A DNA stretch of 64,000 nucleotides from Tricholoma matsutake (taxonomy: Eukaryota > Basidiomycota > Agaricomycetes > Agaricales > Tricholomataceae), in assembly GCA_026075535.2 (NCBI GenBank), contig AP026542.1, positions 2,356,001-2,420,000 of the forward strand, read 5' to 3'. The translations under genes were made by a program, and so were the position numbers. The number at the start of each line of letters is the position of its first letter. Position 1 is the stretch's first letter. Of the stretch, positions 13,656-54,742 are shown one piece after another. The notes under the pieces were generated by a model. It ran no database searches and was not told the DNA's origin. It was given only the letters and a program-made list of their open reading frames with translations.

Positions 13656-14966
13656 TACCCCCCTTTTATGCCTCGACTTCCAGGTGATAAAATATTGTAT
13701 CTGTCCCCTCTGTGAAATGTTGATAAGGCTGGAATTTCATCCCCTCATACACCATTCTCGCAATGTGATGCGGAGCATTCAGATTATGTTTAAAGAATTG
13801 GGTGATCGCGTTATGCACTCGCTTACAATTCTCTTCAGGTTCCCACAAATTATTTTTGTCGGTATAGTTTTTCCACTTTATTAAGAACTCTAATTTGTTC
13901 CATCGAAGATGTGAGTCTAGAATTTCTTCAACTATGTATTCTGGAGCACCTTCTACTATTATCAGAGGTTGCAGAGTAGTTTGTTGCCCAGGAATAGTGG
14001 GTGGGCAGTAAGGGCATAGGCAGGATATGTTAATCTTGGGATCAATCTTGAATGATCAGGGTAATTTTAGCACTACTGCATTAGGTGAGATTACTTTAGA
14101 GATCGCATATGGGCCAACTTGTTTCTCCATAAGTTTCCTTGAAGGTTGTGGAATATTTAGGTCCTTGGTACTTAGCCACACCAAGTCACCAACTTTGTAC
14201 TCTGGAGTGCGTGCTCAAGTATGATCCACGTGTTGCATCATGTCATCACATGCTTTCTTCAATGCCGCCTCTGCTTCCTCTTGTACCTTTTGCATCTTAG
14301 ATACAAAGTCTTCTACCGATTGTACTTTGACTTCCCTTCTGGGTTCTACTCCCATGTGAGGATGATATCCATAATTCGCAAAAAAGGGTGACATACGAGT
14401 AGCCAAATGGAATTTGTTATTGTGGGAAAATTCAGCAATTGCCAACCATTTGGGCCAGTTGGTTTGTCAGTAGTTGACAAACATACGTAGGTACTGCTCC
14501 AACTCCTGGTTCATTCTCTCTGTCTGCCCATCAGTCTGCGGGTGATATGCCATAGATAGTTTAGTTTGAATTCCCAATATGTTGTTCAGTTCTCACATAA
14601 ATGCGGAAGCAAATTGTGGTCCACGATCGGAGATAACGGTATCGGGTAACCCATGTAACCGCCATACCTGATTTAGATAAAGGCGCACCAAGCCCAATGA
14701 TGAGGTTTCTGTAGTAGTAGGAATAATATGGACCTCCTTTGTGAAGCAGTCGCATACTATGAATATTGCATCATACCCTTGAGCTTTGGGTAATCCGGTA
14801 ATAAAATCCACAGATATATCTCGCCACGGTGCTTTAGGTATAGGGTTCGGCATTCATTTTCCTGCAGGTTTTTCTGGAAATTTCTTCCCCCTCATGCACG
14901 TATCACATCCATCCACATACCCCAACACATACTTCGAAATTCCAGGCCACCAATAATTTCTCATTA
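13656..14966 (-). pseudogene. Gypsy copy L, 3' half of pol: integrase and chromodomain
   Basis: The minus strand carries part of the integrase zinc region, the core (DFITGLPKAQGYDAIFIVCD, then DRGPQFASAF at about 14593-14640), the C-terminal region (MAIAEFSHNNKFHLATRMSP near 14445) and a chromodomain (WEPEENCKRVHNAITQFF, near 13850). This places the element among the chromoviruses (Metaviridae). Several in-frame stops, mostly TGA, break it. The frame begins abruptly at 14966, where the sequence turns into the opposite-strand copy at a TA. The remaining 5' part of this element is at 50294-54742 in the other orientation. Confidence 0.85.
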
Positions 14967-16436
14967 ATATCAAAGGAGATGAATGGGCTGAAGAACAAGG
15001 GTTGGTGTTGTTTCGAGGAAAAGTGTATGTACCGAAGGATCAGGATTTGCAAAGGGAGATCATCCGGTTACATCATAATACACCGACTGCTGGACACCCA
15101 GGAAGATGGAAGATGTTGGAATTAGTAATGAGAAATTATTGGTGGCCTGGAATTTCAAAGTATGTATTAGGGTATGTGGATGGATGTGATATGTGCATGA
15201 GGGGGAAGAAATTTCCAGAGAAACCTGCAGGAAACTAATGCTGAACCCTATACCTCAAGCGCCGTGGTGAGATATATCTGTGGATTTTATTACCGGATTA
15301 CCCAAAGCTCAAGGGTACGATGCAATATTCGTAGTATGTGACTGCTTCACAAAGGAGGTCCATATTATTCCTACTACTACAGAAACCTCATCATTGGGCT
15401 TGGCATGCCTCTATCTAAATCAGGTATGGCAGTTACATGGGTTACCTGATACCGTTATCTCTGATCGCAGACCACAATTTGCTTCTGCATTTATGTGAGA
15501 ACTGAACAACATATTGGGGATTCAAACTAAATTATCTACAGCATATCACCCACAGACTGATGGGCAGACAGAGAGAATGAACCAGGAGTTGGAGCAGTAC
15601 CTACGTATGTTTGTCAACTACTGACAAACCGACTGGCCCAAATGGCTGGCAATTGCCGAATTTTCCCACAATAACAAATTCCATTTGGCTACTCATATCT
15701 CACCCTTTTTCGCGAACTATGGATATCATCCTCGCATGGGAGTAGAACCCAGAAGGGAAGTCAAAGTACAGTCGGTAGAAGATTTTGTATCTAAGATGCA
15801 AAAGGTACAAGAGGAAGCAGAGGCAGCATTGAAGAAAGCACATGATGACATGATGTGACATGTGGATCGTACTTGAGCACGCGCTCCAGAGTACAAAGTT
15901 GGTGACTTGGTGTGGCTAAGTACCAAGGACCTAAATATTCCACGACCTTTGAGGAAACTTACAGAGAAACAAGTTGGCCCATATGCAATCTCTAAAGTGA
16001 TCTCGCCTAATGCAGTAGTGCTAAAATTACCCCAATCATTCAAGATTGATCCCAAGATTAACATATCCCACCTATGCCCTTACCGCCCGCCCACTATTCC
16101 AGGCCAACAAACTACTCAACAACCTCCAATAATAGTAGAAGGTGCTCCAGAATACATAGTTGAAGAAATTCTAGACTCACGTCTTTGACAGAACAAATTG
16201 GAGTTCTTAATAAAGTGGAAAAACTGTACTGACAAAAATAATTTGTGGGAACCCGAAGACAATTGTAAGCAAGTACATAATGTGATCGCCCAATTCTTTA
16301 AATGTAATCTGAATGCTCCGCATTGCATTGCGAGAATGGTGTATGAGGGGATGAAATTCTGGCCTTACCAAAATTTCACAGAGGGGACAGACGTAATGTT
16401 TTCTTGCCTGGAAGTTGAGGCATAAAAGGGGGGTAA
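14965..16436 (+). pseudogene. Gypsy copy R, 3' half of pol: integrase and chromodomain
   Basis: The plus strand encodes the HHCC zinc region (LHHNTPTAGHPG ... CDMCMRGK, 15085-15210), the core (MDFITGLPKAQGYDAIFVVC at 15280; DRRPQFASAF at 15465), a [15 protein letters not shown] stretch and a chromodomain (EFLIKWKNCTDKNNLWEPED, 16200-16260). TGA interrupts it at several points, for example within WRDISVD near 15270. It starts at the TA inversion junction. Its 5' half is on the minus strand at 54741-58747. Confidence 0.85.
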
Positions 16437-16838
16437 TGTTAGGAAACCACCCCATTACCTAATAAAATTTCATTTTTATTTTATTATGTCGAATTATGCT
16501 ACATGACGCCAAATGATGCTACACTTTGATAGCATGAGAATTTTATTTCGCATGCATCAAAATCTATGCGCATGTACAAGTGCGTCAGTAACAACAATGT
16601 ACAATATATGTAACATAGTATATAAACCCTAAATATATGCCTAGGGGACCCCAGTTGTGTTCTCTTAGGTATTCCACCTATGCTTTCGGTGTGAAAGGTC
16701 TTTCTCAACCAACTCATCTATTAATAACCCCTCGCATCAAAACCATCAGTTCCCTCATCACAAGCACAGATCCCGCCCCCTTCTTGTAGAGAGAACCCAC
16801 ATGGTCTTAGCTAGCAGATAGTGGGTGTCGCCCTAACA
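16437..16838 (+). mobile_element. 3' LTR of gypsy copy R (402 bp)
   Basis: It follows the purine tract AAAAGGGGGGTAA, starts TGTTAGGAAACC and ends CGCCCTAACA. The next five bases, ACTTT (16839-16843), are the reverse complement of AAAGT at 58748-58752, which follows the other LTR of the same element. Confidence 0.9.
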
Positions 16839-17232
16839 ACTTTGGCCTTGACAGCCACCTGCCGAGCCTCCCTCTCCTCCTCTCTCTTCCTCTCTTCCTC
16901 TCTCTTCCTCGAATACTCTGCAAAAAGATACTTCCCACCCCATGAAACCCAATCCTTGCGAGCGAATGGTGCAAAGAGGCTGATTGCCTCATCCAACGTC
17001 GCCTGCACACGTTTGTCGCATGCCTCATCGAACAACCTGATCAGGTCATCATATTCAGCCTATCGAACGAGGTTAGGAAGCAGATAAACAAAAGAAAAAC
17101 GAAAAAACACACCATCTTCTCAAAAAAACTTTGACCCCAGATTTTGAAGTCCAACTCTTCGGGCTTTGCCAGCCTCGGGCATCAATTTTGGTGATCGAGG
17201 ATGGGAAGAGCAAGCTCAGTGAGGATGGACAT
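16839..17232 (-). pseudogene. N-terminal part of a split coiled-coil/Cys-rich gene
   Basis: Minus-strand gene starting MSILTELALPILDHQN at 17232. An intron lies at about 17060-17112, and exon 2 reads AEYDDLIRLFDEACDKR, a Trp-containing segment (DWVSWGGKYLFAEYSRKREE) and a Glu/Arg coiled coil ending REARQVAVKAK. One in-frame TGA occurs after DHQN and could derive from CGA. The frame stops at the gypsy target site, and its continuation (VKRIEERQDVLVEARRSFLA...) is on the plus strand from 58748. The two parts join in frame once the gypsy element and the inversion are undone. I do not recognise a named family; the build (coiled coil, then a Cys-rich cluster) resembles multicopy uncharacterised basidiomycete proteins. 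Confidence 0.65.
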
Positions 17233-17290
17233 GTTGTCGAGGAGATTGGAGGAGTTCGAATGGAAAGAGAAAAGTTCGAACCATGATGCA

Positions 17291-18437
17291 TCTTAAATCA
17301 GCGATCAACAATGTCACATGACCTGGTTATTTTGGCTCGACTGACTGGGATGGTCAGAATTTCAGTAAGGGGGAGGATGATAGGTTGTCTCCTTGGCTCA
17401 AAGGCCGATACGTCATTCTAACCACATTCTAATCACATTGGCTAACTCCTACGAGGTCCCAGATGCAGCGCAACCCAGTCTATCGATCGCAATATCATAT
17501 CGACCATGTCGAAACATCACCAGCAACATTGATCGTATCAAGAGCCCACATCGCACAACCTTAGGACTACCCCAAAAGCCCCTAAAACCCCTTCTAAACG
17601 ACCATCGAACATCCCTGATCATCTTCGAACAAACTGCGACCGCGATCAAACATCGTCGACCATTGTCGAGCATCATCAATCGATATTGAGAGACTATGAG
17701 CGACATCGGGCACTGCATTCATTATCTATATGGTGGAAGACCATGCACTAGAACATATTTCAACTCATGCTCAAACCTGCTGATCATAGGTCAGCCTCAT
17801 TTCAAGTCCCTATCGCATACAGAACCCGCTGGATGGATTATTGCAACACTTAGCGCAGTTTATACACAAAGGACAGTCTCTTTTTAATTCTTTCCCTTTA
17901 TTACTCCTTCATCATATGATACATCTCTTTCTTCTTCAGATTCCAGTCTCCTTTTTGGCCTTGTGCCTTAACTCATATCTTTTGCCTCATGTTCTACACA
18001 TGTTTCTCATTCCATTTTAGGAAGTTCCTTCAAAACATATAAAACTCTGTAGTATCTACTGGAAAAATACAAGAAATTGTCTTCACCTATCATCTCGTAT
18101 ACAGTTCTAAGCATCTGATCAATCTTCTAAAAACAATCTAAGTCTCTACAAGTTTCCTCGATCGATGAGAAAGCTCTGCGATCATTGTCATCCTCAATCT
18201 TCCTATGATCCTCTGATCATTATCACTAGCAACCATTTCAACACGTCCTAGCCATCGGCTATATACTTCATATACTTTTGACCTATCGAAAGGTCCTCGG
18301 AATTTGCACTTTGACCATCGACGATAGAACTCGTTTGCCATCGATCTTGTTGATTGTCCTCAATATCGATTGATACTCGATTGGACCATGCCAAACACCT
18401 TCGTCTCCCATAGCACTACCTTTACAACTAGTACCAA
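17291..18437. other. No supported gene
   Basis: AT-rich sequence with many ATCGA/TCGAT words and only short, unrelated open frames on both strands. I see no repeat structure or splice-joined frame that I would defend. Confidence 0.4.
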
Positions 18438-20409
18438 CTAGTTATCTACCCATAGGTTGGACCACAAACATTTGGAATGACTCGCACCCTTCCTCGGACT
18501 TGTCACAATTATCATCGATTGCCTCATTGGCAGTTTAGGTGGTTTTCCCGGGTTGAGCATCATCAATGAGTCTTTCAGGGTGTGATCACAAAGTTGATGG
18601 TCTCCTGAGACACAGTGGGTGAAAGGCCAGGAAGAGATGGTTGGATGGTCCAGATGTAGGTGGTAATTGCGAGACTGGAGGCATTGACAAGCTAGCTTGT
18701 GAGGGGGTTGGAGGGGGTTGACGAGCAACAAAAACACTGTGGGCAGTGTCTGAGGGTCCAGCCTGAGGGATGGTGATGGAAGAGTCATTGTCCAAGTGTG
18801 ACATGTGAATACTATTGCCAAGACTCTGATGCTCTCTTCCTTCATCTAAGGCTCGGAAGTGGGATTGTGCTTTGAGTGGGCTAATACTTTGCAGAGCTCA
18901 GCAGTGCTGGTGGTGATAGTGAGAGCATGAGCACAAGTCAAAATCATCAGAGTTGAATTCTGACATCCATTGATAGCATTGAGGTTTGTGTCATCGGGGG
19001 CCTTGTCATTCTAGAAGTCTGAGGATCTGAAGTTCATTTTTGGCTCTGTCTGCATGCTGTGCTTCATGAAGTACTCAGTCATGGAGGGCATCAGTACATG
19101 CATGGAGCTCCCAAAGCTCAAGTTGAGTAGCAGCCAGTTGGTTCAGTTGAACACTTTGCGACATGCGACGATCATCATGATCACGAATATTGGCAGGATC
19201 AAAGGTGCTAGTGATCTTGTTGAGAGCTTCTGCAGCTGTGGCATTACATGGCTTTTGTATGTCAGCTAATGGGTGTTCAACCCGATAAGCTTTAGCCATG
19301 ACACCACCTTTCTTCACATTACTCTTCGATGCCTTAGCATTCTCCTTTTCATCATCAGTAATCTCAATGACGGATTCATCACCCCCACTCCCAGAACCTT
19401 CACCCACTTCACTATAATCAGGGTCATCCAGCATCAATGTTCCAGATTTCACTGGGATCTTTTCCTCAATAACAAGCACCTTCTTCAGAGGATGATCATC
19501 ACCACATTCTGCATCTCCAGTGGGCTTCTCTTTGGCATCTCAAAGAAGCTATAAAGATGATATGTGAATGTTTACACATCAGAAACTTGAGAAACTGATG
19601 AACAGAGTCAAATTTGTTTTGAATTGACTGTTGATTATGCTCTGGGTATTGCCCCGCTTTTGCCCATGCATTGTACTTCTCCGTAACTATGTCCCATCCT
19701 TTGGCATCCATAGGAAGATGTACATTTACATGGCAAAGCAGCCTGTGAATCTCAGGTGCAGTGAAGTTGCAAAAGCCTGTAGCATGGCCTTTTGATGACT
19801 TCCCTTTGGTTTCTGTCTCGACCTTTGCTTTACTTGTGCCAGCTTTATTATTCAATGCACAACTGGCCTTTGAGGAAGCATGTTTGACTAGCTTGGAATC
19901 TTCTTCCTCTTCATCGCTATCCCTAGCAATGTTTGGTTTCTGACATGCTTTTCCCCTCTGATCAACATGTGGATCATCAACTACTTTACGTTTGCTGACC
20001 CTCTTGGTGCTGGGGCACAAAATGTTGCTGACTTCAGGGAGATCAGAATCAGAATTTGCAGAGGCAGGAGTATGATGGGGATGATGGGGATGAATAGGCA
20101 CATGCATTGAGCTGGGAAACAGTGGTGGAAGCATATTAGTACTACTTAGTAGCAGTAGGGGTCTGTCTAAGAGGTTGGGGGCGAGGTCGAGACTAGTGTT
20201 TTAAGGTTCGGTTTGGTCCAGTTTTTCAACCTCTAAGAGGGTTAACCGTAACCGTGACTGGTCTAGACCAGCACCCCAAGTCAGTTGGACCATAACTGAA
20301 CTGATTGAGACCAGTCCTATTGGTTCGGTTACAGTCCAAAAAACTGGTTTTGACCAGTTTTCCCCCTGTTTTTTCACACTAACTAAATTTAATTATGTAT
20401 ACAAAATAA

Positions 20410-21366: not shown

Positions 21367-23973
21367 CAGTTGACACCCTCTTAACCCATACCCCTGGTAA
21401 CCCATACTCCCTCATACCCCATAGAATTTTTGAGCTACCAAGTCGGTAGGCAGGGAAATGGAACCCATAACCCATACTCTCTAATACCCAATAACCCATA
21501 CCCTTTACGAGGCAAAACCCATACATTTTATTACTATATGTGTAATAGTGCATATGAACTATGAACTATGATGCACCACAAATCCTAAGTAACTTTTTTT
21601 GACACTCGAATCTCACCTGCTCTGGCTGCTCATGACATTAAAGGCTCTTGAGGTCCTGAAAAAGGGGCTGAAAATCTTGCAGGCCCAGGTTAAAGCTAAG
21701 AAAGAGAAACTCCAGGCTCAACTGCATGAGAGGAAATCAATCTCTTCACATGACAAAAAATGGCTGGACAACAAAGCTAATTTGGTTGATGAGCAACAGG
21801 TTTTGGATGCTCTGGAGAATGCTTCTGATTATGAGAGAGGTTTGGAAAGACTTGATGATGTGCAGAAGGGTGTTGTCAAAAGATTATGGGAGGTGGCAGG
21901 TGACCTAAGCAAGGTGGTAGGCAAGAAGCGAAAATGTACGTTAATGAATTGCAACTTCAGTATCCATTGAAGTAACAGACCAACCTGAAGGATCTGAAAC
22001 TAAAGCTAAGGAACCCAGCGAGAAGAAGCAAAGTAGCTCCACTGCACCTGTGTTCACCAAGAAGGAGAATGCAACACTCTCCCAGTGCATTGAAATTCTG
22101 GATTGGTATCATGACAATGGCAAGAATCAGTCAAAAACTGCAAAGCACTTTGATTCCATCTATCCAAACCTGAAAATGAAGCAACCTCTGGTCTCTGCAT
22201 GGGTAAAGGATGAAGCAAAATGGCAAGAGGAATGGGCGCATAGCAATGGTGGACACAAAGCAAAATGGGCTCGTCAAACACAGCATCCAGAAGTCATGGA
22301 AATGATGGAGTTATGGGTGTCAAAGGCAATGCAAAACAACCTTCTTCTCACCGGTGAAGTCTTATGCCAGAAGTGGACAAAATTTGCAGACCTAGCAGGT
22401 GTCCCAGATGACGAGTGTCTCAGTTTGAGTGAGGGGTGGTTGGCTCGTTTCAAGGTCCAGAATGGTTTGAAGCAATTCAAGCATCATGGCAATGCTGCAT
22501 CAGCAGATCTGGAGACCATGAAGACTGAGCAAAAATGCATCCAGGAGCTTATTGATAAGTATGGTTATGAGCTACGGGATATCTTTAACATGGACGAGAC
22601 TGGGTTGTTCTATGGGCATGTACCATACCTATTCTTTGGTTAAAATACTCATTTCAGAATAGGATGCCTCCAGATCGAGGGTTAGCAAATAAGAAACATT
22701 TGGGAGTGAAAGGCAGCAAGGTCCGACTCACCTATGCATTTACATCAAATGCGGATGGATCTGAGAAACTGCAGCCCATCATTATTGGAAGGGCACATAA
22801 ACCTCGAGCGTTCCAAAAGAAGACAGGCACACAGCTGGGTTTTTACTACCAGAACAATGCAAAGGCTTGGATGACTTTGGCACTGTATCAGGAGTGGATT
22901 CAGCAATGGGATCGGGAACTACAGACAAAAAACTGCAAGGTCCTTCTCCTACAAGATAATTTCTCTGGTCACATTGTTCCAGATGGTCTTCGGAACATAT
23001 GCGTCAAGAATTTCGAGCCAAACCTCACTGCACATGTCCAACCAATGGATCAGGGTATCATCCGATGCTTCAAAGCTCATTACCATGCAAAGTATATACA
23101 ACATGCGATCGATCATTATGATGCAGGCGTCACTCCATCCGAAATCTATGACATTGATCAACTCGAAGCAATGCAGCTTGGCATGAAGTGGACACAACTA
23201 CAATCAGGAACTGCTGGAAGAAAGCTGCTATTCTTCCATCATCCTCTCTGCCAGTTTTGAATCCAAGCATCCCTGTTTCATCACTCCTTAATGTTAACGA
23301 CACTCATGGTCTTGAAGATCCTGTCACAATTGCTGAGAAGCACTCTTGACAAGTTGGTATCAACTGGGGCACTTCAGGCAAGCAACAGAATGGATATCGA
23401 AGGACTACTCAATTCGGCAGACAAGTCACATGTCATAGATGAGACAATGGATGAAGAAATATGCCAGGCTGTGTTGGACGCACAAAAAGCTCAGGAAGAG
23501 GGGCCGATCAATGGTGGGGACAATGATATTGATGATGATGCACCTGTTGAGCCTTGTCCCACATGTCGCGAAGTGCTTCAGGCAGCCTCAGTTATCAACA
23601 AGTACATTGATAGTGTTGATGATCCTGTTGCATGCAAACTTGAGGGGATTCTGGCCTCTTTCAAACATCAAATGCGGTTGGAGATGTCCTTCTCCATGAA
23701 CTCTACTCAACTTACTGATTACTTTCATCGTATATAATCTTACTAGTAGTATATAATACCCCCTAGAGACAAATAGTTGATTTAGCTGTAGATACTTTAC
23801 CTTCTTGGTTGTAAATAGTTATACTGTACTTCAGAAATTTAAAGCCAAATTTTTTAGAATTTTATTGGATTTTTTGGACCTATTTTTAGCACTATCCTCG
23901 AACCCCATACTCCCTCATAACCCATAGCCCTGAGTGTCCATGGAAGGGGTATGGGTTATGAGGGTGTCGACTG
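21367..23973 (+). mobile_element. Pogo/Fot-type Tc1-mariner element, 2.6 kb, TA duplication
   Basis: The inverted ends are CAGTTGACACCCTCTTAACC on the left and the reverse complement of CAGTCGACACCCTCATAACC on the right, with ACCCATACCCC-type subterminal repeats. TA flanks both sides (21365-21366 and 23974-23975). It encodes a DDE transposase in the plus orientation and sits wholly inside the hAT element. Confidence 0.9.
21599..23737 (+). pseudogene. Pogo-type DDE transposase (CENP-B-like), frameshifted
   Basis: Cut-and-paste transposase that binds the element ends in the nucleus. Exons joined by two short introns (21936-21978 and 22620-22657) give a Lys-rich coiled-coil N-terminus, then a CENP-B-type helix-turn-helix DNA-binding region (KENATLSQCIEILDWYHDNG, QNNLLLTGEVLCQKWTKFAD) and the DDE_1 catalytic core. 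The three acidic residues are visible in FNMDETGLFYG, LLLQDNFSGH and HVQPMDQGIIRCFK. After MKWTQ the frame shifts: TIRNCWKKAAILPSS is in another frame. A second shift near 23340 leads to STLDKLVSTGALQASNRMDI and an acidic tail ending at 23737. Two frameshifts make this copy probably inactive even though its catalytic residues remain. The ATG at 21599 is the first in frame. Confidence 0.8.
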
Positions 23974-25362: not shown

Positions 25363-25857
25363 TAATTCCCTTGACATTGAAGTATGTGTGACTATATCCT
25401 GCTGCTTTTGCTTTCAGGTCTGAGGTCAATGCACAGAGAACGACTTCACAAAGTTTGACATGGAGTTTTGGGATCAAGTCAAGCATGCAAAAATCCTTGA
25501 TAATCTGACAAGCTTCTCCAAAAACATGTCCACATGCCTTGCTTGAGTGAAGCCATGGCAAAAGAGGAAACCAGCCAGTAACATGGTCTCGATGGATGAT
25601 GACCAATGCAATGAGCCCCTCGATGATAATCTGTGCAATGTCAACCGCCTCACAGGATAGGAAGTATTGTGATTTCTTGTATTTGGACTGATTCAAGAAA
25701 GATTCCCATGCATTGATGAAGTACCGTGCATGCAATACAAGTTTCAGGCGCTCGAGATGAGATATCGAGTGATTCTGGTAAGCGTTGATAAGTTCACTGA
25801 AAACAAACAGATAGACAATTTCTCCAATGTATTCTGGGTGGTGGTCAGAAAGATACT

Positions 25858-26197
25858 TATAGAGATCCAACCTAGATAATACACAAATAAACTCAGTCTG
25901 TGTATGACAGACTATATTTGGTTATCACTGTACCTAGATAATACACAAATAAACTATAACTAGTACAGTAAGTAATTGAGTCAATGTAAGTGTTAGAGTG
26001 TCTGCTCACCTCAGTCTGTGTATGATGGACTGAGGTGTCTGTATCTATCTTGTAAGATATATATACGAGTATGACAATAGAAAAGGTGATAAAGGAACTG
26101 TAAGAAAGGAATATGGACAAGGGGAAATACGCATCACTTTGTGTGCTATAATTAGCATGCTGCATCAAAGGGTGTATTCACGGTGTAGATCTCAACA
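25858..26197 (-). repeat. 3' LTR of the copia element (340 bp)
   Basis: Near-identical to 33798-34137, with a handful of substitutions. It is preceded internally by the purine tract GGTGAGGAGGAG (minus strand). Confidence 0.92.
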
Positions 26198-29100
26198 CTC
26201 CTCCTCACCGTGAATACTCCTCCTCACATGGAATTGGCGTATTTTGCTGAAGACCTAAGAAGCCACATAAGCGTACAAATTGTTTGACATCGAGAGCCTT
26301 GGTGAAGATGTCAGCAATATTATCCTTGGTATTGACATAGGATACAGTGAGTTCCTGAGATTGGGCACGTTCACAAAGGAAGTGGAATTTAATGTCGATG
26401 TGTTTAACTCTGGAGTGAAGGAGAGGGTCCTCTGAAATGCTAATTGAAGCAGTGTTATCACATAACATTGGAGTCGGTGTATCAGGCGAATGACCGATAG
26501 TGGTAAGTAGGGTACAAATCCAAATGCACTCTTTTGCAGTCTTGAAAGTGGCAATGTACTCAGCTTTGCATGATGATGCTGCAACTGTTTTTTGTTTGTG
26601 AGCAGTCCATGAAATGGCTCCAGACCCAAGTGAACACATGTAACCACCGACACTGCGCCTAGTATCTAGGCAACTAGCCCAGTCAGAATCGGTATAGGCC
26701 AATAATGAGATAGGATTATCTCCACCCAGGTAGAGTTTAAGGTCCCATGTTCCCTTGAGGTAGCGAACAAGATGTAGAGCAGTGCATCAATGCTCAAAAG
26801 AATAAGAATCCAAGAATTGTGAAAGTTGTTGGACAGCAAATGAGATATCTGGACATGTTGAGATGGCCAAGTATAATAAGCATCTGACCAAGGAATGATA
26901 AGGTAAGTTTAAGAGTTTAGCTTGTTCATCAGCGGGAAGCATGGTGCAGTTGAAACAACATAGTTTCTGTTTTGCTTCCATCGGGGCAGATAGGGGTAAT
27001 GCATTGGATTGACCGAATTGGGATACAATTTTGTCAATTAAAGCCCTTTGCAATAGCGCGACGGTTCGATGTATCCTATCCCAGGTAATTGCAATGCCAA
27101 CAATGAACCGCGCTGTTCCCAGATCTGAAATCATCCAGACTTTTTGCATCTGGTCTTTGAACCTTTTGTTCTCTTCCTTCTGGCTCGCGATGGATAAGTA
27201 ATCATCGACATGGACTGCCGCTACAATGGTACCTGTGTCAGCCTTTCTGTAGTAGATACATGACTCGCATGAAAGTCTTGTAAAACCCCAAGAAATCATT
27301 TGTGCATTTAGCATCTGATTCCAGATGCTTCCACTCTGTTTCATACTGTAAAGTCCTCGTTGTAATTCCCATACCCAATCCTCTTTTCCAACCTCTGCAA
27401 AACTGGCTGGTTGTTCCATATACTGAATTTCATCGGCCGGTAAGAGTCCATAGAGAAAGGCGGTCTTGACATCAATCTGTTGGGCATCCCAACCAAGCAA
27501 GGCGGCAATGTGCAAAAGGATCCGCCAAGATTCCATGCATGCAGTAGGTGAGGTAGTTTTTGTGTAATCTTTGCCATAAATCTGTTCAAACCCTTTGAAA
27601 ACAAGGCGTACCTTCCAACACACTGGAGTGCCATCTTCATTTTGTTTGATGTGAAAGACTGGGCGACCCTTACATATGTGGTGCCCCTGTGGTACGTTAG
27701 CCCATGGAACCAATTTGTAGACTTGCATGTCTTTCAAGGACTTGAGTTCCTCGCAATATCCTTCCTCCCAACGCTTAGAGTCTGCTGAATTCTGGGCTTC
27801 CTCCCAGGTGCATGGGTCATCTTCGAATTGAAGTGATTCAGGATCTATATCAGACATCTCCAAGATCAGGGTGTATAATTGATGTGCCTGATCGCCAAGT
27901 GTAGGGTCCTCAATAAATTGTGGTTCGGCTCAATCATGATCGGCAGATGTAGGTGCAATGACATCACGGAGCCCTTCCAAGATTCGTTTCCGTTCTGTAT
28001 GTTGTTCCTTTATATGCTCTGCAGATTCTTGTGAATTACGGACAGCTCGATCTAGTCTAGTAGTGGTCGTGCCTCCGTTTGGATGTTTGTCAGTAGGAAT
28101 TGGCACTCTGGTAGATCTGCGTGGCTCCAAGGTGGCTGGTTCGGGAGTGTTCATTGTGACAGGCTCATCTATGGGTAGGTCATTGATGGGTCCTGTGTCA
28201 GGTGGGGAGATGTTGTCATCATTGATGTCAAAGGGGATGAGAGTCGACAGAGGAACTTCTTCTGTTTGGATGGGTGCATCATGCATTGGAGACAACGGTA
28301 CATGACCATTATGGCTTTCAACAAACCTGACATGATATGAACTATATACCTTGTGGGTTTTTCGATCGTAGCAGCAGTACGCCTTCAATTTGAGTTTGTA
28401 GCTGATGAGTACACATTCGATCGAACATTCATAGATTTTTGGGTTGTTTTTGTTTTGGATGAAAACATATGCTTTACAGCCGATCTCCCTCATGTAAGAA
28501 TAATCAGGTTGCCGTTTGTGCCATTTCTCCCAAGGGGTAGAGCCTTTGAGTGAACTTGTTGTAGTCTTGGCATGTAGGAGAGAAGCCATTAAGTAAAATT
28601 TGTCCCAAAGATAAGGTGGTAAGTTCGCATAAATGCGCATGGTACGTGCCTTCCCCATCAGCATCCTGTGCATATGCTCAACATGGCCAATGTGAGCTGA
28701 AGTATAAGGTGCAGTGAATTTGTGATCGGTCCCTCTCATCTTTAGCCAGGCTTTGATTTCGTGTGATTTGAGTTCGCCATTGTCTGTGATGTACATCCCC
28801 ACTTGCAGTCCAGTCTCCTTTTCTCATGCTAGCTCCCATGCCTTGAGTTCTTGGAATGCATTGTTCTTATGCTTAAGTGGTATGGACCATGGGTGTGAGG
28901 TACAATCATCCACAATGTTCATGATATACAAATTCCCGGAATGCAACTTTACATCATGCGGTCCCAAAAGATCCACCCAAACTTTCTCTAATTTCTGTGT
29001 AGCCCTATGTCCTTCCCCCTCTGCACACTTCTTAGGAACAGGTTAATGAGTCTGTTTTCCAAGGATGCAAGATTCACATTTTGGGGGTTTGAAAGAGGAT

Positions 29101-30603: not shown

Positions 30604-30690
30604 GCAGGGATTGAACTCTAGAACTCATGATCAAGAATCACATGACAAACCAAACAAGTGATTAACCAGTTGAGCCACAGGAGAATTATT
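30604..30690 (-). repeat. tRNA-derived segment, left side of the element
   Basis: On the minus strand it has the A box TGGCTCAACTGG and the B box GAGTTCAATCCC at normal spacing. It points towards the left end of the element and is followed by the TCCTGGTGAG repeats. Confidence 0.6.
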
Positions 30691-45117: not shown

Positions 45118-45302
45118 TGTAAGAGTGCCTCTTACATCATCATTACATTATCACATGCCACTCAGTTATCACATGTTATTCTGATAGTATATAGTCTATA
45201 CTTCGAGTACTTGTACTGTATTCTAGAATCCCCCCTTGAAATATATTAAGTTCCTTATAGTTCTCAGTCCCCTTTAGTGTTGGAAGCTCCGGCTTTCTTC
45301 CA
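45118..45302 (+). repeat. 5' LTR of the P450-bearing element
   Basis: 185 bp, direct copy of 48071-48255. It is followed by CTTTTTTTTAATAATGAAC, as is the related LTR at 12726-12906. Confidence 0.88.
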
Positions 45303-45611
45303 CTTTTTTTTAATAATGAACTTACTATCAACACTCTATTCTCTCTCTCACACCCTCTTTTCCCGAAACCAGGCCGACCCTGGAATTTCCAAAAACAGTC
45401 TAATTTTTTCTTGCTGAACACTGTACCTTGACAATGCTAAGCTACCTGCTCACTCGATGCTCACTGCCCCTGCACCAAGGGGACCTCCCTAGAATTTGTT
45501 TGAATCCTCCTTCTTTCCTTCCCCCACTATCCCCCGGTTCTCCTTCTCCGAGCAACCTCACAGCGACCCTGGTTCTTGCCAACCCATTAAATCCTGGTTT
45601 CTCATTACACA

Positions 45612-46451
45612 ATGGCTTCTACAATCTCCTTATCTGTCTCTTGCTTTTCTCACAACATCGTCTTCATCACAGCTTCTGTCACCTTCACCTACATCCTCTT
45701 TTGGGCCATCTACAACCTCTTCTTGTCTCCTCTTAGTGTGATCCCTGGCCCCTGGTATGCGGCCGTCTCTGATTTCTGGATCACAGCACACGTTCTATGC
45801 CTCCGCCAATGCAAGGTCGTCCAAGAGCTTCTCAACACCTATGGCCTGGTAGTGCAAATCACCCCAAACAAGGTAGTCTTTCGCGACCTGTCCACCATGC
45901 GCAGCATCTACACTGTGCACAAGTTCGACAAAAGCTCATATTATGAGGGCCTCCACATCAATGACAACGAGCATGCAATGACATCTCTTGATCATGCTAC
46001 TCATTCTATGCACCGAAAAGGCTATGCACCGAATTACACCCCTACCAATATTTCTCATTTTGAGCCCAAAATGCATGAGGTTATCCTTGAGCTTGTCAAC
46101 ACTCTCAGGAACTCTGCCAGCAAGGGTCCTTTGGATTGCTTGGCTATTTTTTGTCACACAATGGTTGATGCAGTTGTTCACTTCTCCTATGGTTATCACC
46201 TCGGCGCGGTGAGCAAATTTGCCTTGGATGTCAAAGACCCTCTTTCCATGGCAATAAACAATTTCCCTAAGTGTGGAATTTTGCAATGTACTATCCCCAG
46301 ATGGGCCTGGAACCTTGTTAGCCAGATTCCCAACAATCGATGGAGGCAGATGTGCGATTCCAATAAGATCATGGCTGAGTGGGCAAATCTGAAAAAGTAT
46401 GAGGTGTTTGCTCGATGGAACAATCCTGCCAGCCTCACCACCCCCAAATGA
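45612..46451 (+). CDS. Cytochrome P450, N-terminal half only, intron-free
   Basis: P450 mono-oxygenases are haem enzymes anchored in the ER membrane. The 279-codon frame starts at 45612 with a hydrophobic anchor (FITASVTFTYILFWAIYNLF), the Pro-rich hinge SVIPGPWYAAVSD, then TYGLVVQITPNKVVFRDLST, YTVHKFDKSSYYEGL, the helix C region HSMHRKGYAPNYTPTNIS, and continues to about helix F/G (VDAVVHFSYGYHLG, MAEWANLKKYE). It then runs out into unrelated sequence. The I helix, ExxR and haem-binding Cys motif are missing, so it cannot be a working P450. It has no intron in 840 bp, whereas fungal P450 genes usually have several, and it lies in the sense direction of the LTRs: both fit capture of a spliced transcript. 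The subfamily is not assigned. Confidence 0.85.
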   Translation: MASTISLSVSCFSHNIVFITASVTFTYILFWAIYNLFLSPLSVIPGPWYAAVSDFWITAHVLCLRQCKVVQELLNTYGLVVQITPNKVVFRDLSTMRSIYTVHKFDKSSYYEGLHINDNEHAMTSLDHATHSMHRKGYAPNYTPTNISHFEPKMHEVILELVNTLRNSASKGPLDCLAIFCHTMVDAVVHFSYGYHLGAVSKFALDVKDPLSMAINNFPKCGILQCTIPRWAWNLVSQIPNNRWRQMCDSNKIMAEWANLKKYEVFARWNNPASLTTPK

Positions 46452-48070
46452 TGACCTGTGCCCCTGTTATCCTCCCAGTTCCCCCGCGCCCCTGTTATCC
46501 ACCACAAGCCCAGAACAGCACCCACAACATCAAGAACCACCACCACCACCCCTCCCCTTCCCACAAACCAGTCCCAAACAGCTCAAAAATGATGCCACAC
46601 CCTGCCTGGCCAACATACAGCCCTACTACAGACTCCCCAGCCCCTCATCTCGAGCCCTGAGCCTCACTGTCCCTCTGCCACATCACAGCCACCAATGGCT
46701 GCAACACCTGTTACAACCACCTCGGAAACAGCACCTAGGGCTGTATCCAGCACCCAGACAGTGGGTACCTCCCCAGAGAACACTCACCAAGCCCCAAGCG
46801 ATGTACAATGAATGTCCACAATCTGGCAAAACCAGTCGCAGGCATACGTGCCCACGTGTTTGTCAAAACATGTTGCCCACTTGATGACACCACCCTGTCC
46901 ACCCCAGCTTGGCTCCCTGACCCCGGTTTGACACCTTCAGCCATGCAACGCAACTGCCATGTCATACTCAATTACCCTGGTTCACCCACTCCCAGCACTT
47001 TCAGAATGAGACTCAGCACCTGCAAAATGACAAAGCATGGACGTAAACCATCCAGATCACCCACACAGCCCATCCCAACCCTTCAGCTCACCCCAGAAAC
47101 GAGTCACCTCTCCATCGCCTGTATCCTATGTCATACACGACGGTTTACGCACCCACTATGTCACAGGCCCCTGGAACGACTCTGCCAAGCCCCAACAATG
47201 ACCTGTACCACTGCCCCGGCTCCTCTGCTCCCCCCAGCCTGTGCCCCTGCTCCCTGTCCCACACCTCGCATGACCCAACATGACTGCCCGTCATTGTCGA
47301 CACGTCCATTGACGACAGCTGAATCACCTGCTCCACACCATGTAGGACTGCCAGCCTCTATGGCCCCTCGTCTCGTGTCCAGAACCGCCCGTTGCCACCA
47401 CCACATCGTTTTCAACAATGGCAATGAATTTGGCTGCAACTACCCCCACAACAACAACCTGGGCAACATCTGGCACTCATACAACTGCTACCATCCCAGA
47501 AATACATTGTTAGGCCCTAGACAACATACAGAAACAGTCTACTACAGCCCAGCAGGCCAATTCGCAGGACGACGAGCAAACATGTTTGTCAAAATGCATC
47601 GTCTACTCAACAGAATGACTCTGGTCTGCCCTGAACCCCAAACGAAGGTCCCAAACCCCCAGTCCCTGTCCCAAAATCTCAGCTTGCCACAGGCAGACTG
47701 TGGATGCACCATTCCGCCAGGACCTGCATCCTATACCCCTGCCATGTCACTAACGACGCCGTCTCAATGCCTGATGACACACCGTCTATGCCCATGTTTC
47801 CATCCATGCCCCCATCCATGTCACTAGCACCGTCCACAGCACCAGCCCCATCCATGTCACTGGCCCTGTCCCCATCCACATCACCTGTCCCACCTGGTCA
47901 CCAGCCCCATTCATTTTCACCAGCCCTGCACCTGTCATGTCCCCTGCACTGCACCTGTCCAACTCTGACTCAGTGTTCTTGTGAACATGTAAAGTTATTT
48001 TTGGTTACCATGACCACATTTACCTTGCCACCTGCCCCCCCCCAGTCATTTTTTTTGGAGTATGAGAGAG
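46452..48070 (+). other. Pro/Thr-rich tract of unknown origin in the LTR element
   Basis: Low-complexity C-rich DNA with broken open frames in all plus frames. A block near 46810-46870 (containing CATGTTTGTCAAAA-type text) recurs with changes near 47550-47610, so it contains an internal duplication. CCATCCATGTCACTAGC-type short repeats lie at 47800-47890. I cannot assign a function. Confidence 0.5.
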
Positions 48071-48255
48071 TGTAAGAGTGCCTCTTACATTGTCATTACA
48101 TTATCACATGCCACTCAGTTATCACATGTTATTCTGATAGTATATAGTCTATACTTCGAGTACTTGTACTGTATTCTAGAATCCCCCCTTGAAATATATT
48201 AAGTTCCTTATAGTTCTCAGTCCCCTTTAGTGTTGGAAGCTCCAGCTTCCTTCCA
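48071..48255 (+). repeat. 3' LTR of the P450-bearing element
   Basis: 185 bp, direct copy of 45118-45302, followed by the target duplication GCCTA. Confidence 0.88.
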
Positions 48256-48861
48256 GCCTATTGCAAGAAGGTTGAATTCAATGTACACATGGCACATGGA
48301 GGGGTAAGATTTCCTTCTTTTCAAAGTCTTGTTGCTGCCAGCCTAGCCATCCTTGGGCTGATGTCATCCTGTTGGCCAATGCTGTGTCTTAGCCGATGCT
48401 GTGTCTTGGCCGATGCCGTGTCTTGTTTGGCTTGTCTATCCTCTCACTGATGACTTTGCAGTCTGGAAACATGACTGATACACCATACTACTATGCATTG
48501 GCCCACAACCAGCTAATGCTACCTGCTGATCCAGTAAGTGCCTTGTCCTCGTTTGTATGACTGTTAGTTCATCCTGTTGCAGAAATTGACAGACAGGCAG
48601 CTGTTGAGCTGCCATGCCAAAGTGAAAGCCCTGCAAAACAACCTTGGCACCTCATACAAGGATGCCAGTCATCATCTCTACATGGCTGAGGTTGAGAAGC
48701 TGGAACAGCAAGATGTCACATTGAAGACATATGCAACCTTGAAGGAAAGGATGGAATACAATCTGAAATCATTCAAATGCAGGTTCTCAGACATTCCAAT
48801 CAGATCATTGTCCCATGATGACAACATGGCCGATCCCACCAATTTTTTCACAATTAGCTAG

Positions 48862-49290
48862 TACCAACATTGTTATTTTAGCTAGGATGAACACTGCTGT
48901 TTTGTTGATTTTGTTCATTCATACTCCCTGTGCCCATTGTGCATCTGGTTTGCTAATGCCCATTGCTGATGCTTTTGGTATATAGATTTCCACCCCAAAG
49001 TATCTGTCTGCTGCTACCAATGTTGATGTTGATGTAGATTTCTGTGCTGACGTGTCTGCTGATGCCGATGCTGATGGCTGTGACTATGTCATCAATGGTA
49101 TTAGATTCTTACTGCACATCTATGCCAATGCCGAGTACCATGTCCAATGCTATCTCATAGGTCACTGATCGGTCTATTAACATTCTTCATAGTGTATCAC
49201 AAGCAAGAATTGTAAAAGACCTGTTTGGTAGGTCTGCACTACATAGAATGAATTATTGCATCATTGCCCATTGCTAGGCCATACAGTCTC
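48862..49290. other. No gene; GATGCC tract and element end
   Basis: Downstream of gene C. It holds GCTGATGCCGATGCTGATG-type tracts near 49045-49080, the inverted block at 49190-49213, and a block like the 155-bp repeats of 11.4-12.1 kb (TTTGGTAGGTCTGC, GAATTATTGCATCATTGCCC). Confidence 0.45.
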
Positions 49291-50293
49291 CTATACACAT
49301 CTATACCAAGCATTGTAATTCACTATAGTACACACAGCTAGGTTGTATGAGGCCGCATTTGCAGTGGATCTGGCAGATGGTGCGGTGTAGGCATTGGAAG
49401 AGCGAATGTTGGTCTGAGCCTTAGCTGCATTCTTGGCAGCATTCGCCATGCTGGTACTGATTTGTTTCTGGTGGGTGGCGAGCTGAATGTCGAGGATTAT
49501 AATATGATGAATCCAGGTTTCAATGTCTTCAATAGCATTGAGCTCTTTCTTTGTGGCCCGATAAGCAAGGCAGAGTGCAGGGTTGAGGTGTGCAACAAGA
49601 TGAGCATGGAAGTGCTTGGCAGGAATGTGTTGTAAGGAACCTGCAGCCTCGAGTTCATTGTTAACTTTGCGAATGGAGACAGACCACTCATAAAACTCAT
49701 GGTCCCCCTGAGGGGCAATGAGCTCCTGGATCAGTTTGTCCTCCCAATCTGAAGGCAACCATTTCTGCTTGACTTCCAGCATGAACTTGCCAAAGGAGAG
49801 ACCAATCAGCCTTTCACTGTCAGATTTGATCCACGATTGCATGAAATCTGATTCAAATGAGTAGATGATGCAGCCAACCTGATCCTCAGGGTGATCTCTT
49901 TGTATGCAAAGAAGCATTTGCACGCATAGTCAAATCTGTGTAGATTTGTGACAGTGATGGAACCAGCTGACAAGAGAGGTGGTTGGCTAGTGGCAGTCTG
50001 GAGAACAGTAGCTGCCGCATAAGGCATATTGGCGATGACAGGGTCGACAAGATGCATATTGGGCAGTGAGAGGCAGGGCGTTAAGTCAGAGTCTGAGGAG
50101 TCAGAACATGGTCAACAGTTGTGAGGTAGATCGATCTGTGTTGGCTGAGGGCCCAAGTTGGGTGAGGGCATTAGAGGTGGAAGCAGCGAAGACAGCAGGG
50201 AGAGTGATGGAAGATCCAGGGTTTAGAGGCTGTGAATGCAGGTTGGGTGGACAAGGGGGGAATGTAACCTTCTGGGAACGAGGTACAGGGTGG
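49291..50293 (-). pseudogene. Gag-like gene of an LTR retrotransposon
   Basis: Minus-strand frames carry SITVTNLHRFDYACKCFFAY (about 49930-49990), then after a frameshift QVGCIIYSFESDFMQSWIKS, LIGLSFGKFMLEVKQKWLPS, GDHEFYEWSVSIRKVNNELE and HFHAHLVAHLNPALCLAYRA. This is the arrangement of a capsid/gag protein of gypsy-type fungal elements. The pol that should follow is absent: the frame ends in an alanine-rich tail at 49291. After the central inversion is undone, this gag lies behind the LTR and leader at 12726-13256, so it probably belongs to the TGTAAGAG LTR family that also supplied the P450-bearing element. Confidence 0.6.
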
Positions 50294-50695
50294 TGTTAGG
50301 AAACCACCCCATTACCTAATAAAATTTCATTTTTATTTTATTATGTCGAATTACGCTACATGACGCTAAATGATGCTACATTTTGATAGCATGAGAATTT
50401 TATTTTGCACGCATCAAAATGTATGTGCATATACAAGTGCGTCAGTAACAACAATGTACAATATATGTAACATAGTATATAAACCCTAAATATATGCCTA
50501 GGGGACCCCAGTTGTGTTCTCTTAGGTATTCCACCTATGTTTTCAGTGTGAAAGGCCTTTCTCAACCAACTCATCTATTAATAACCCCTTGCATCAAAAC
50601 CATCAATTCCCCCATCACAAGTGCGGATCCTGCCCCCTTCTTGTAGAGAGAACCTGCACGGTCTTAGCTAGCAGATAGTGGGTGTTGCCCTAACA
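50294..50695 (+). mobile_element. 5' LTR of gypsy copy L (402 bp)
   Basis: TGTTAGGAAACC ... TTGCCCTAACA. It is preceded by GGTGG (50289-50293), which matches CCACC at 13252-13256 when the interval is re-inverted. Confidence 0.9.
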
Positions 50696-51181
50696 GAAGA
50701 ACACAACTTCCCATATCAGTGCGCCTTCTCTTACTTGCGCATACATCATTGTTTCACCACGCCACATCCGATTACTCATCCTTTTGGCACGAGCCGGAAG
50801 TACTTGTACATATGTAATCTACCTTTTCTTTTGTAAGCCGACACCAGGCCTCGCCTTACATTGCGACTGCCAGTGATTGAGAGGCAGCACTCATCATTAG
50901 GACAGCTGCAACCAGACAACCGATTGGATCTGGTTTAGTTATGATTTACATCACTCTATTCAGATGACTATTTTAGTTACAAGCTGAATTCAGTGTTATC
51001 TCTGAGATCAGGCACTGTTGGAAGGGTTATTGATCTGAAGTGTCAAATTAGGCACCTGACGATCAACAAACAATTGACGAACAATTGATGAACCAACATG
51101 TGACCCGTAAACATTTGGAGAGGTCCCAAAGAACCAATCTTGAATTTGTCAAAGAAGTGATTCATCACAGATTCTACAACT

Positions 51182-52279
51182 ATGTCCAAACCTTCAACTT
51201 CTAATCCCAGTCCTAATCCTGTTCCCACACCAGCACTAGAGGTGAAAATTGATGCGCTTACAGTGCAAATGTCCCAATTAGTGTCAGTGTTGGCAGCATC
51301 ACAGCCCAGGCAAGTGGAAGTACAGCCAGAGACAACAGGAGAAAGAGATGATGAGATGGAGGAGATGGTGGAGTGGATGTCACAGGAGGATGAGACAGCA
51401 GAGAAATCCGGAAATGGAAAAGTGCACTTACCTAAGTACGTGCCCCTGCAAATCTTTGATGGTACCATGGAGAATACAAAATCCTTCATCAGCTCTATAG
51501 TATTGTACATCCATGGGAGGAAGCCATGAGTTTTGTACAGCCGAGTCTAGGATTATGTTTGCTATCTCGTACATCCAGGGGGGAAAGCACAGTTCTGGAG
51601 AAATGAGGCTATTAATCAAATTGCCATGGGAAATAAACCATTTGCAACCTTCAAGGAATTTCTGGAGAGATTGGAGGCACAGTTTGGAGACCCTAATCCA
51701 AAGGCGACAGCCAATGCTAAATTAAAGACCATGCGCCAAGGTTCCCTAACGGCGGATGAATTTATTTTGCAGTTCAAAGCAGAAGCTTTGCAAACGGACA
51801 TGGGAGAAGCCGCATTGGTAGAGTTTTTAAAAGCAGGATTAAATCCCTCTTTATTCAAGTCTATCTACCAACTACCTTCTATGCCAGAGAAGTTGGACAA
51901 GTGGTATAATTGGGCAATGCGCCTTGACCGGCAATATTGGCAGCAACAGGCAGAGTCAAAGTTGATGTATGGAAGTAGTAAATTTGGAAAGTCATCTGGA
52001 GGAAAGTCTGAGAAAAGAAAGGCACCTCAGGCACAAGCTCCAAGGGCACAGCCACCAGTCATGGCAGTGACACCTATAGTTATGGAGTCAGCAGCACCAG
52101 CAGAGGCAATGGAGGTTGATCAAGCAGGAAGACAAGCCCCACTTAAATGTTTTAACTGTGGGCAGTTAGGACACATTTCTAGGAATTGTAGGCAGAAAAG
52201 AAAGATTAGGGAAGCTACAATCAAGGAAGTGAAGCCAGAGGAAGGCAAGCAGAAGAATTTTGTGGAAGAGTCCCAGTGA
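51182..52279 (+). pseudogene. Gypsy copy L Gag with zinc knuckle, frameshifted
   Basis: Capsid/nucleocapsid protein of the chromovirus. It starts MSKPSTSNPSPNPVPTPALE at 51182, continues to IFDGTMENTKSFISSIVLYI, stops at 51529, and continues in another frame: NKPFATFKEFLERLEAQFGD, AEALQTDMGEAALVEFLKAG, the Lys-rich linker and the CCHC knuckle CFNCGQLGHISRNC (about 52147-52190), ending at 52279. The leader 50696-51181 holds no gene. Confidence 0.85.
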
Positions 52280-54742
52280 AGGTTTCCCCATTGGTGACCC
52301 AGAATTGTTACAATGTATTAGTATCCGAGGAAACCCAGAGCAAATCAGAAAAGGAAATCGAGGAGGAGTATAACCATTCTGAATCACGTGACAATTTTCA
52401 CGCGTCATTTCTGAAAACCCCTAAATTCTTTATTCACTCTGCGCAAATAGAACCCGAAATCACCTTGACTGTGGGACTGAAGACAGTGGACATGCATGCA
52501 GCAATTGATGTGGAAGCATTGCTTGATAGTGGTGCTACAGAATTATTTATTAATTGATCCTTAATTACCAGAAACGGTATTAACACATGCAAGCTGGCGC
52601 AACCTATAATGGTGTACAATATTGACAGAACAGTCAATCATGGAGGAACTATCAAGGAGGAGGTGACTATGGTACTCAGGTATCAGGAGCATCAGGAGCA
52701 AGCCATATTCAAAGTGTGCAATCTTGGGAAAACCAATCTAATAATAGGATGTCCATGGTTACAGAAGCATAATCCCAAAATTGATTGGAAAACTGGGAAA
52801 GTACAAATGACTCATTGTCCTAAAGAATGTAATGTGTATGGAAGGAAGATGAAGAAGGAAAAAAGGAAAAAGAAAGAGAAAGAACGTCTGAGAAAGTATT
52901 ATGTTACGATGGAGGAAGTGGAGGATGAGGAAATGCCAAATGAGGAAGTTCCGGTCATGATTGAGAAAGAAGAGCAGAAGCAAACCTTTAGAGCAATTCA
53001 TGGAGGACAGTCATGGGACAAGAATATCATGAAGGTGGAGAAGCCAGTGGAGGAATGGGTGCCAAAAGTGTATCATGAACATCTGTCAGTGTTCCAGAAG
53101 GAGTCTGAGTGAATGCTGGTGCGGAAGCCATGGGATCATGTGATTGAGATGAAGCCAGGGTTTGTGCTAAAGAAGTCAAAGGTATATCCATTATCTCCAA
53201 TGGAACAAGAAGAAGTGGATGCATTCCGGAAGGAGCAATTGCACAAAGGATACATACGACCTTCGAAATCACCACAGATGTCACCAATATTCTTCGTGCC
53301 AAAGAAAGACCAAAGGAAGAGGATGTGTACAGATTATAGGTATCTGAATGAGTGGACAGTGAAGAACGCATACCCCCTGCCGTTGATCTCAGAAATAATT
53401 GACAAAGTGGGAAAGGCCAAGGTCTTTACAAAATTGGATTTATGATGAGGATACAACAATGTACGAATAAAGAAAGGAGATGAGTGGAAGGCTGCATTTG
53501 CCACGTGTCGAGGATCCTTTGAGCCGCTTGTCATGTTTTTTGGGATGACTAATAGGCCCCGACCTTTCAAAATATGATGAACAACATTTTCAAGGATGTA
53601 ATAGACAAAGGTGTGGTAATAATATTTATTGACAACATTCTGATATTCATGGAGGATGAAGTGAATCATGAGGCGATAGTGCAGGAGGTGTTATGGAGGT
53701 TGGCGGAGAATGATCTATTTTTGAAACCAGAGAAGTGTGTGTTTGGGGCAAGCGAGATTGAGTTCCTAGGATTATTGATCGGCCCTGATGGGATCAAAAT
53801 GGATCTGATCAAGGTACAGGCAATCACAGATTGGCCTGTGCCCACCCGTGTCAAGGAGGTTCAAGCCTTCTTGGGACTCACAAATTATTATCATCACTTT
53901 GTGCACAATTTTTCTAAAATTGCCACACCCTTACATAACCTTACGTGAAAGGGAGTAGTGTGGAGGTGGGGAGAGCAGCAGCAGACAGCATTTGAGGAGT
54001 TGAAGAGGAAGTTTGTGGAGGGACCAATATTAGCCCCAGTAGATTTCACATGCCCTTTGCGAGTGGAATCCGATGCATCCAATTTTGCTACTGGAGCAGT
54101 ATTATCAATGTTGTGTGAAGATGACATATGGCATCCTTGTGCATATTTGTCCTGAGGATTGAATGATGTGGAGAGGAATTATGATGTGCATGACAAAGAG
54201 ATGTTGGGGATAATATGAGCATTGGAGGCATGGAGACATTATTTGGAGGGATGTATGCATCAGATTGAGATCTGGACGGATCATCACAATCTGCAATACT
54301 TCATGTCCACTAAAAAGCTTAATCGCTGGCAAGCGCGTTGGGCACTATTCCTATCATGTTTCAATTTTCACTTGGTCCACAAAGTGGGAAGCTTAATGAG
54401 GAAAGCAGATGCATTATTCAGACGTATTGATCATAAAAGGGGGGTGGAGGAGGACAATAAGAATGTTACCTTGCTCAAACCCAAATACTTTCGCATTTGT
54501 GCTATGCATCAAGGGCATCTATTAATAGATAGCTTGGAAACGGAAATGTTGTCTACAATTAGACAATAGAGAAGAAAGGTAATATTAAAGGAGATGAATG
54601 GGCTGAGGAACAAGGGTTGGTGTTGTTTTGAGGAAAAGTGTATGTACCGAAGAATCAGGATTTGTGAAGGGAGATCATCCGGTTACATCATAATACACCG
54701 ACTGCCGGACACCCAGGAAGATGGAAGACGTTGGAATTAGTA
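52276..54742 (+). pseudogene. Gypsy copy L pol 5' part: protease, RT, RNase H
   Basis: The aspartic protease site is LLDSGATELFIN (about 52525-52554), followed by TGA where the other copy has Arg. A Lys/Glu-rich segment follows, then RT blocks ([20 protein letters not shown], 53285-53340; the KLDL motif interrupted by two TGA at 53443-53448) and the active-site region VVIIFIDNILIF (about 53610-53650), where the second Asp of the FxDD box is Asn. RNase H-like text follows (APVDFTCPLRVESDASNFAT; DVHDKEMLGII then TGA). The frame ends at a TA (54741-54742) and turns into the opposite-strand copy. Confidence 0.88.

Follow-up and report, generated by a model that had tools for sequence, protein, structure and literature searches.

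We report a 39.8-kb segment on chromosome 5 of Tricholoma matsutake whose two ends lie inside two copies of one retrotransposon family, and whose present orientation is the younger one. The un-inverted order is older: both elements inserted first, and the segment was turned later. The segment occupies positions 14965–54742 of the window, that is, of the whole 64,000-nucleotide stretch analysed (positions 2356001–2420000 of chromosome 5, C5, in the telomere-to-telomere assembly), and its ends can be moved by a 2-bp TA. The assembled genome comprises 161,040,721 bp in 13 contigs, chromosome 5 accounting for 12,860,286 bp, and repeats are given as 71.6% of the matsutake genome in the genome statistics of PMC10211490. 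The element family is a Ty3/gypsy chromovirus, with an integrase followed by a chromodomain and with gag, reverse transcriptase (RT) and RNase H of the gypsy type. Insertion of both copies, followed by a double break and an inversion closed by end joining, is in our judgement the probable history of the segment.

Two chromovirus copies with exchanged halves

Intact copies of the element elsewhere in the genome consist, in the coding direction, of three parts in the order Y-M-X. Y runs from the 5' long terminal repeat (LTR) to the border between RNase H and integrase, M measures 161 bp, and X holds the rest of the integrase, SH3, the chromodomain and the 3' LTR. In the window this order is broken up. 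X reversed is followed by M and X forward at 13257–16838, and after 33.5 kb Y and M forward are followed by Y reversed at 50294–58747. Self-BLAST resolved these parts into two inverted repeats, 13257–14969 against 15123–16838 (92.4% identity) and 50294–54208 against 54798–58747 (93.3%), and into two occurrences of M in the same orientation, 14965–15127 and 54580–54742 (163 bp in self-BLAST, 95.1% identity), the second on the plus strand as the spacer between the 5' halves.

Element 1 is divided into a 3' half, a (13257–14966, minus strand, from the 3' LTR to TA|ATGAG), and a 5' half with M, c (50294–54742, plus strand, from the 5' LTR to GGAATTAG|TA), which contains an open reading frame (ORF) for gag and a zinc knuckle. 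Element 2 is divided into a 3' half with M, b (14965–16838, plus strand, from AAAGG|TA to the 3' LTR, with SH3 and chromodomain ORFs), and a 5' half, d (54741–58747, minus strand, from the 5' LTR to AAAGG|TA, with an RT ORF). The two 3' halves are joined at 14965 and the two 5' halves at 54742, and a TA at each junction (14965–14966 and 54741–54742) is common to both sides. Two interrupted palindromes result, with arms of 1.7 kb and about 4 kb, the second being 8.45 kb long.

Comparison with intact copies fixed the cuts. In these copies the half at 13257–14966 continues directly into M, and the end of d adjoins the start of M. On one such copy (L010), halves a and c stop at 3167 and 3166, respectively, and half b begins at 3328. 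The cuts in both elements are reciprocal to the base, save for the TA, which can be assigned to either side; they lie 161 bp apart in element coordinates, and no bases are lost or duplicated at either join beyond the TA overlap. The M|X cut falls inside a stretch matching the integrase zinc finger (H2C2), and the Y|M cut precedes it by 161 bp. A first-pass annotation of the window had described two 3' halves meeting near 14965 and two 5' halves near 54741, reciprocal cuts about 160 bp apart, and a TA at each join, and self-BLAST and the intact copies confirm this description. The TA overlap was rejected as a significant signal, since an ambiguity of at least 2 bp is within chance expectation, occurring in 6.5% of distinct random inversions and 16% of random cut pairs.

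The ORFs of copy L010 encode Chromo (1.2e-15), rve, H2C2, RVT_1, RNase H and gag domains, and half b matches the Chromo domain at 4.3e-09. The LTR is 402 bp long. By comparison of descriptions, the element may be marY1 (AB028236), a gypsy retrotransposon of T. matsutake which the accounts of it in PMC10211490 and PMC10627285 give as about 6 kb long with a 426-bp LTR. Species, gypsy type, a length of about 6.2 kb and a high copy number agree, whereas the LTR lengths of 426 and 402 bp do not. A stretch of 36 bp (12688–12723) about 530 bp outside element 1 is identical to the LTR end at 16803–16838, a lone LTR tip.

Older order of the segment

The target duplications of the two elements pair across the inversion. 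CCACC on the left side of element 1 (13252–13256) matches GGTGG, its reverse, at 50289–50293, and ACTTT of element 2 (16839–16843) matches AAAGT, its reverse, at 58748–58752, exactly as had been predicted for the re-inverted segment.

Uninterrupted relatives of both insertion sites were found in the genome. Empty-site queries, with 500 bp of host flank per side in the un-inverted order and the target duplication included once, were searched against the whole genome. The joined flanks of element 2 (b and d) were continuous in 40 of 40 rows at 81–86% identity (best 40 of 355 candidates), and those of element 1 (a and c) in seven of 49 rows (best 40 of 88 candidates). Two of these 49 rows are the window's own halves, and the remaining non-spanning rows match one side only. 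The best match for element 1 was C1:2369777-2370768, with 93% identity over 1–1000 of the 1000-bp query. Control queries in the present order, with 250 bp of host flank on each side, spanned neither join (0 of 40 rows in both cases, the best 40 of 251 and the best 40 of 239 candidates). Each element was thus inserted into an unbroken stretch of host DNA, and the present order arose later. As the test uses host flanks, this evidence is independent of the elements themselves, and it bears out on separate grounds the proposal that the un-inverted order is ancestral.

At ten uninterrupted loci for element 2 (L029–L038) and one for element 1 (L039) the flanks overlap by 3–6 bases, and by exactly five in seven of the 11; in L039 the overlap consists of the CCACC bases. 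L039 is collinear with 11677–13256 at 92.6% and with 50293–48289 at 95.9%. The host DNA that flanks element 1 on its inner side (48289–50293) continues at 11677–13256 in the contig C1 relative (95.9% on this side), near which no match was found to the 3.1-kb inner stretch 45300–48400, where another repeat lies. Among the lower-identity loci for element 1, the flanks meet within one base in L042, about 90–140 bases on the c side are unaligned by BLAST in L043, L044, L045 and L047, and one side only is seen by BLAST in L046 and L048. The host repeat that borders element 2 on its inner side (16839–18565) continues at 58748–60728 in uninterrupted relatives. Element 2 lies inside this host repeat, and at least 40 places match its 1,000-bp joined flank at 81–86%.

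The LTRs were compared with each other and with 37 others (41 in total), partners being assigned by identity ranking only. The closest partner of the LTR of a is that of c, that of b is d, and that of d is b. The pairs a–c and b–d are 94.5% and 95.8% identical in the alignment (93.2% and 95.8% by BLAST), and 15 control pairs gave 93.5–97.3%; both elements are of ordinary age for the copies sampled. A partner test based on rare LTR variants was discarded: its seven "rare" matches between a and b were artefactual, the other 3' LTRs having been trimmed at 402 bp and those of a and b left untrimmed.

The older order bears on two other explanations. Homologous recombination between inverted repeats is the commonly cited route of transposon-caused inversions. 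Such ectopic-recombination inversions need transposon copies in inverted orientation, whereas the uninterrupted sites show both elements pointing the same way before the event. Crossing-over would also leave continuous elements, and here 3' meets 3' and 5' meets 5'. Since the elements shared one orientation, crossing-over is excluded as the cause, and we give this route practically no chance. The first-pass annotation had argued the same from the orientation of the elements, and the older order upholds it.

In the case of an assembly error the chromosome would be un-inverted and the contig wrongly turned at 14965–54742. The un-inverted order is older and so may still be the sole real one, for which reason its age alone does not decide against an error. 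Furthermore, the HiFi reads have an N50 of 10–11 kb, against a second palindrome of 8.45 kb. However, an error would have to have produced chimeric sequence at two joins 40 kb apart, with both elements cut at identical bases; the palindrome arms are 92–93% alike, hence not perfect fold-backs; and elements in the same orientation would, by our reasoning, give an assembler no inverted overlap. The window contains no N. According to the assembly description in PMC10211490, contigs were built with hifiasm from HiFi reads of each of two sporocarps separately, chromosome 5 is a single contig in either sporocarp assembly (A10 and B4), and the joining of contigs with N described there involves A3, A4 and A9, which form chromosome 1. 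We consider an assembly error unlikely. Between the two readings offered at first, a real double-break inversion or an assembly error, the real inversion is favoured, and the error keeps small odds.

Deletions, similarity of the arms and neighbouring elements

The earlier statement that nothing was lost or duplicated is right for the joins but not for the arms, as half c lacks 49 bp and half d 365 bp. Likewise, re-inversion restores both elements from LTR to LTR with matching target duplications, but with an internal deletion in each. The block missing from c, which we call R, ends 12 bp before AAAGG|TA (deletion point 54567–54568, plus strand). The deletion in d lies just upstream of R, starts about 60 bp from AAAGG|TA and is joined at a TGTT microhomology, which leaves its near end uncertain by 4 bp (54797–54801, minus strand). 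If that margin is allowed for, the deletions of c and d adjoin each other at GACAAT|GTT, a single element coordinate next to the cut site.

Neither deletion turned up in the other copies inspected. Of 20 fetched copies, 18 have an R of 49 bp, L014 one of 47 and L017 one of 29, and the distance that is shortened to 46 in d is 391–412 in 19 of the 20, and was not found in L012. A match resembling R stands beside the cut in 38 of 39 other copies, a count that favours copies having R, which the query contained. With the same query no row except the window's own spans the d deletion, and a 17-base string across it occurs in none of the 28 loci searched. In a survey of gaps of at least 10 bp seen against at least three of 13 copies, c showed one deletion, the 49-bp one, and a and b none. 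Half d showed a 12-bp gap against three copies and a 33-bp insertion against eight, its 365-bp deletion appearing as alignments that stop at 54796–54798.

When deletions were placed at random, both fell within 61 bp of the spacer in two of 10,000 trials and abutted within 4 bp in 0.2%, both measures being post hoc. An extruded hairpin of a real palindrome may have been cut across its stem and then trimmed, or the paired elements may have been processed together as the inversion arose. The abutment is no proof of an inversion, because it holds in element coordinates and would therefore be found without an inversion as well.

The similarity between the arms differs between the two palindromes. 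The X arms a and b are 92.5% identical, at or below background (means of 93.2 and 92.7% with 19 copies), and gene conversion between them, looked for as proof of an old palindrome, was not seen. The Y arms c and d are 94.6% identical, more than either arm shares with any of 15 other copies (93.8 and 93.9% at the highest). This excess is patchy, and some windows of the comparison are the least alike of all. A patch of 481 bp in arm c (51850–52330, plus strand) has its best-scored other match in the genome at 56716–57196 in arm d, with 99% identity (best 40 of 1307 candidates), and the arm d patch in turn finds arm c (best 40 of 1306 candidates); the patch was chosen after the window identities were known, and we use it as a hint only. 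For a second window d appeared only in the 12th row, and the longest identical run between c and d is unexceptional, ranking 6th of 136 pairs. The patch suggests conversion between the two elements, either before or after the inversion.

The two M copies are not specially alike. Those of b and c are 95.0% identical, four of 40 comparisons are as high, and elsewhere each is matched more closely (98% and 96%). This bears on an inversion by staggered breaks, in which element 2 would have supplied a duplicate of M, element 1 would have lost its own, and M at the second junction would have been flipped afterwards. One further event would then explain the abutting deletions. The scheme needs the piece lost in one element to be the piece duplicated in the other, and the M copies differ at 5%, each being nearer to some other copy. 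Moreover, the hallmark of staggered breaks is an inverted duplication at the inversion ends, and here the M copies share one orientation and each completes its own element, which disfavours the usual footprint. We regard this origin as very unlikely. Reinsertion of an excised circle in the reverse direction was rejected by reasoning, since it would supply only one M. A recurrent flip was rejected as well, neither junction recurring among the best 40 candidates scored per junction.

Several further elements lie in the window. A Copia-type element at 25855–34137, within the inverted segment, has 343-bp direct repeats at its ends that are 97.4% alike and minus-strand ORFs for RVT_2, SH3 and copia gag. 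The segment also contains an ORF with a Tc5-type transposase DNA-binding domain (21948–22640), and at 45118–48255 two 185-bp direct repeats, 97.8% alike and about 3 kb apart, pieces of which occur on many contigs and which perhaps belong to a small LTR element. Immediately to the right of the region, minus-strand ORFs with integrase H2C2 and RNase H domains (60647–62368) represent another retrotransposon remnant. Tandem repeats of about 70 bp each occupy 7137–7858, and an ORF encoding a HET (heterokaryon incompatibility) domain follows directly at 7800–8648.

Probable origin of the inversion and its meaning

Two double-strand breaks closed by end joining are the simplest account of the inversion. 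Two copies of the chromovirus inserted in the same orientation about 33.5 kb apart on chromosome 5, as the sequence shows. One break per copy would have followed at the RNase H–integrase border, at the cut sites seen 161 bp apart, and the segment would have been rejoined in reverse by end joining, with the TA as a 2-bp overlap and without loss of bases at the joins. The outcome is the two interrupted palindromes. The abutting deletions in both arms near the centre of the second may be earlier or later than the inversion, or may have arisen with it. End joining fits the same orientation of the repeats, the lack of a duplication at the ends and the 2-bp microhomology.

Four points weigh against this history. 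The X arms show no homogenisation, and nothing in them indicates that the palindrome persisted in vivo. The LTR closest to that of c is one in L025, the predicted partner a ranking only fourth. Both breaks fell in one family at sites 161 bp apart, which independent random breaks leave unexplained; with both elements given, the probability by chance is 5.5%, and before the elements are given it is lower, with no fair denominator, as inversions ending in unique DNA would go unnoticed. Finally, the inversion is known here from the assembled sequence of a single genome.

A refinement of the double-break history, overlapping with it in probability, is that homology guided the breaks: the elements would have paired during ectopic repair, been cut at the edges of M and been joined the wrong way round. 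The 161-bp spacing of the cuts in homologous elements (the 5.5% being post hoc), the deletions of c and d abutting at one coordinate beside the cut and the reciprocal best match of the c/d patch, both likewise post hoc, point in this direction. The ordinary likeness of the M copies, the 12th rank of d for the second window and the X arms without excess likeness point away from it. We hold it to be possible, although the chances are against it.

Inversions by end joining are known. In Drosophila the "cut-and-paste" type, in which end joining seals clean double-strand breaks, is described in the relevant passage of PMC7584159, citing Wesley and Eanes 1994. The matsutake inversion resembles it in having no end duplication, no bases gained or lost at the joins and 2 bp of microhomology, not above chance, and differs in where the breaks lie, namely within two copies of a single retrotransposon family that had the same orientation, at element coordinates 161 bp apart. 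Inversions made with Cas9 depend on the end-joining ligase LIG4, as stated in the abstracted results of PMC4465146, and this dependence fits the proposed route. Galileo-mediated ectopic recombination, as outlined in PMC2775673, likewise involves copies of one transposon family at both ends, whereas the copies here lay in direct orientation. Alternative-transposition inversions of maize, as summarised in PMC8225341, share transposons at the inversion ends, but here the cuts are internal and no element terminus lies at the joins. The inversion is thus of a known kind, cut-and-paste, and unusual in that its breaks lie in homologous elements at sites 161 bp apart. Among the open-literature titles and abstracts searched, including those of PMC12368964, PMC6861252 and PMC4465146, we found no inversion with both ends in same-orientation copies of one retrotransposon, which is weak evidence of absence.

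It is conceivable, if rather doubtful, that direct repeats can seed inversions, the copies pairing in repair, both being cut in a short common tract and end joining turning the segment. If true, the pair of elements would bear corresponding traces of the event, namely the 161-bp spacing of the cuts, the adjoining deletions at one element coordinate and a patch of conversion between the arms. Multiple inversions between T. matsutake and T. bakamatsutake are mentioned in the genome comparison of PMC10627285, and the matsutake segment is one small, base-exact example of a possible route to such inversions. Target duplications and uninterrupted sites together revealed, with no need for an outgroup genome, which order is older and in what sequence the events took place. 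Applied to genomes rich in repeats, the empty-site test could give the number of inversions and show whether breaks between direct repeats cluster at homologous positions. The segment itself is a clearly preserved trace of chromosome breakage in a fungus whose genome is rich in repeats.

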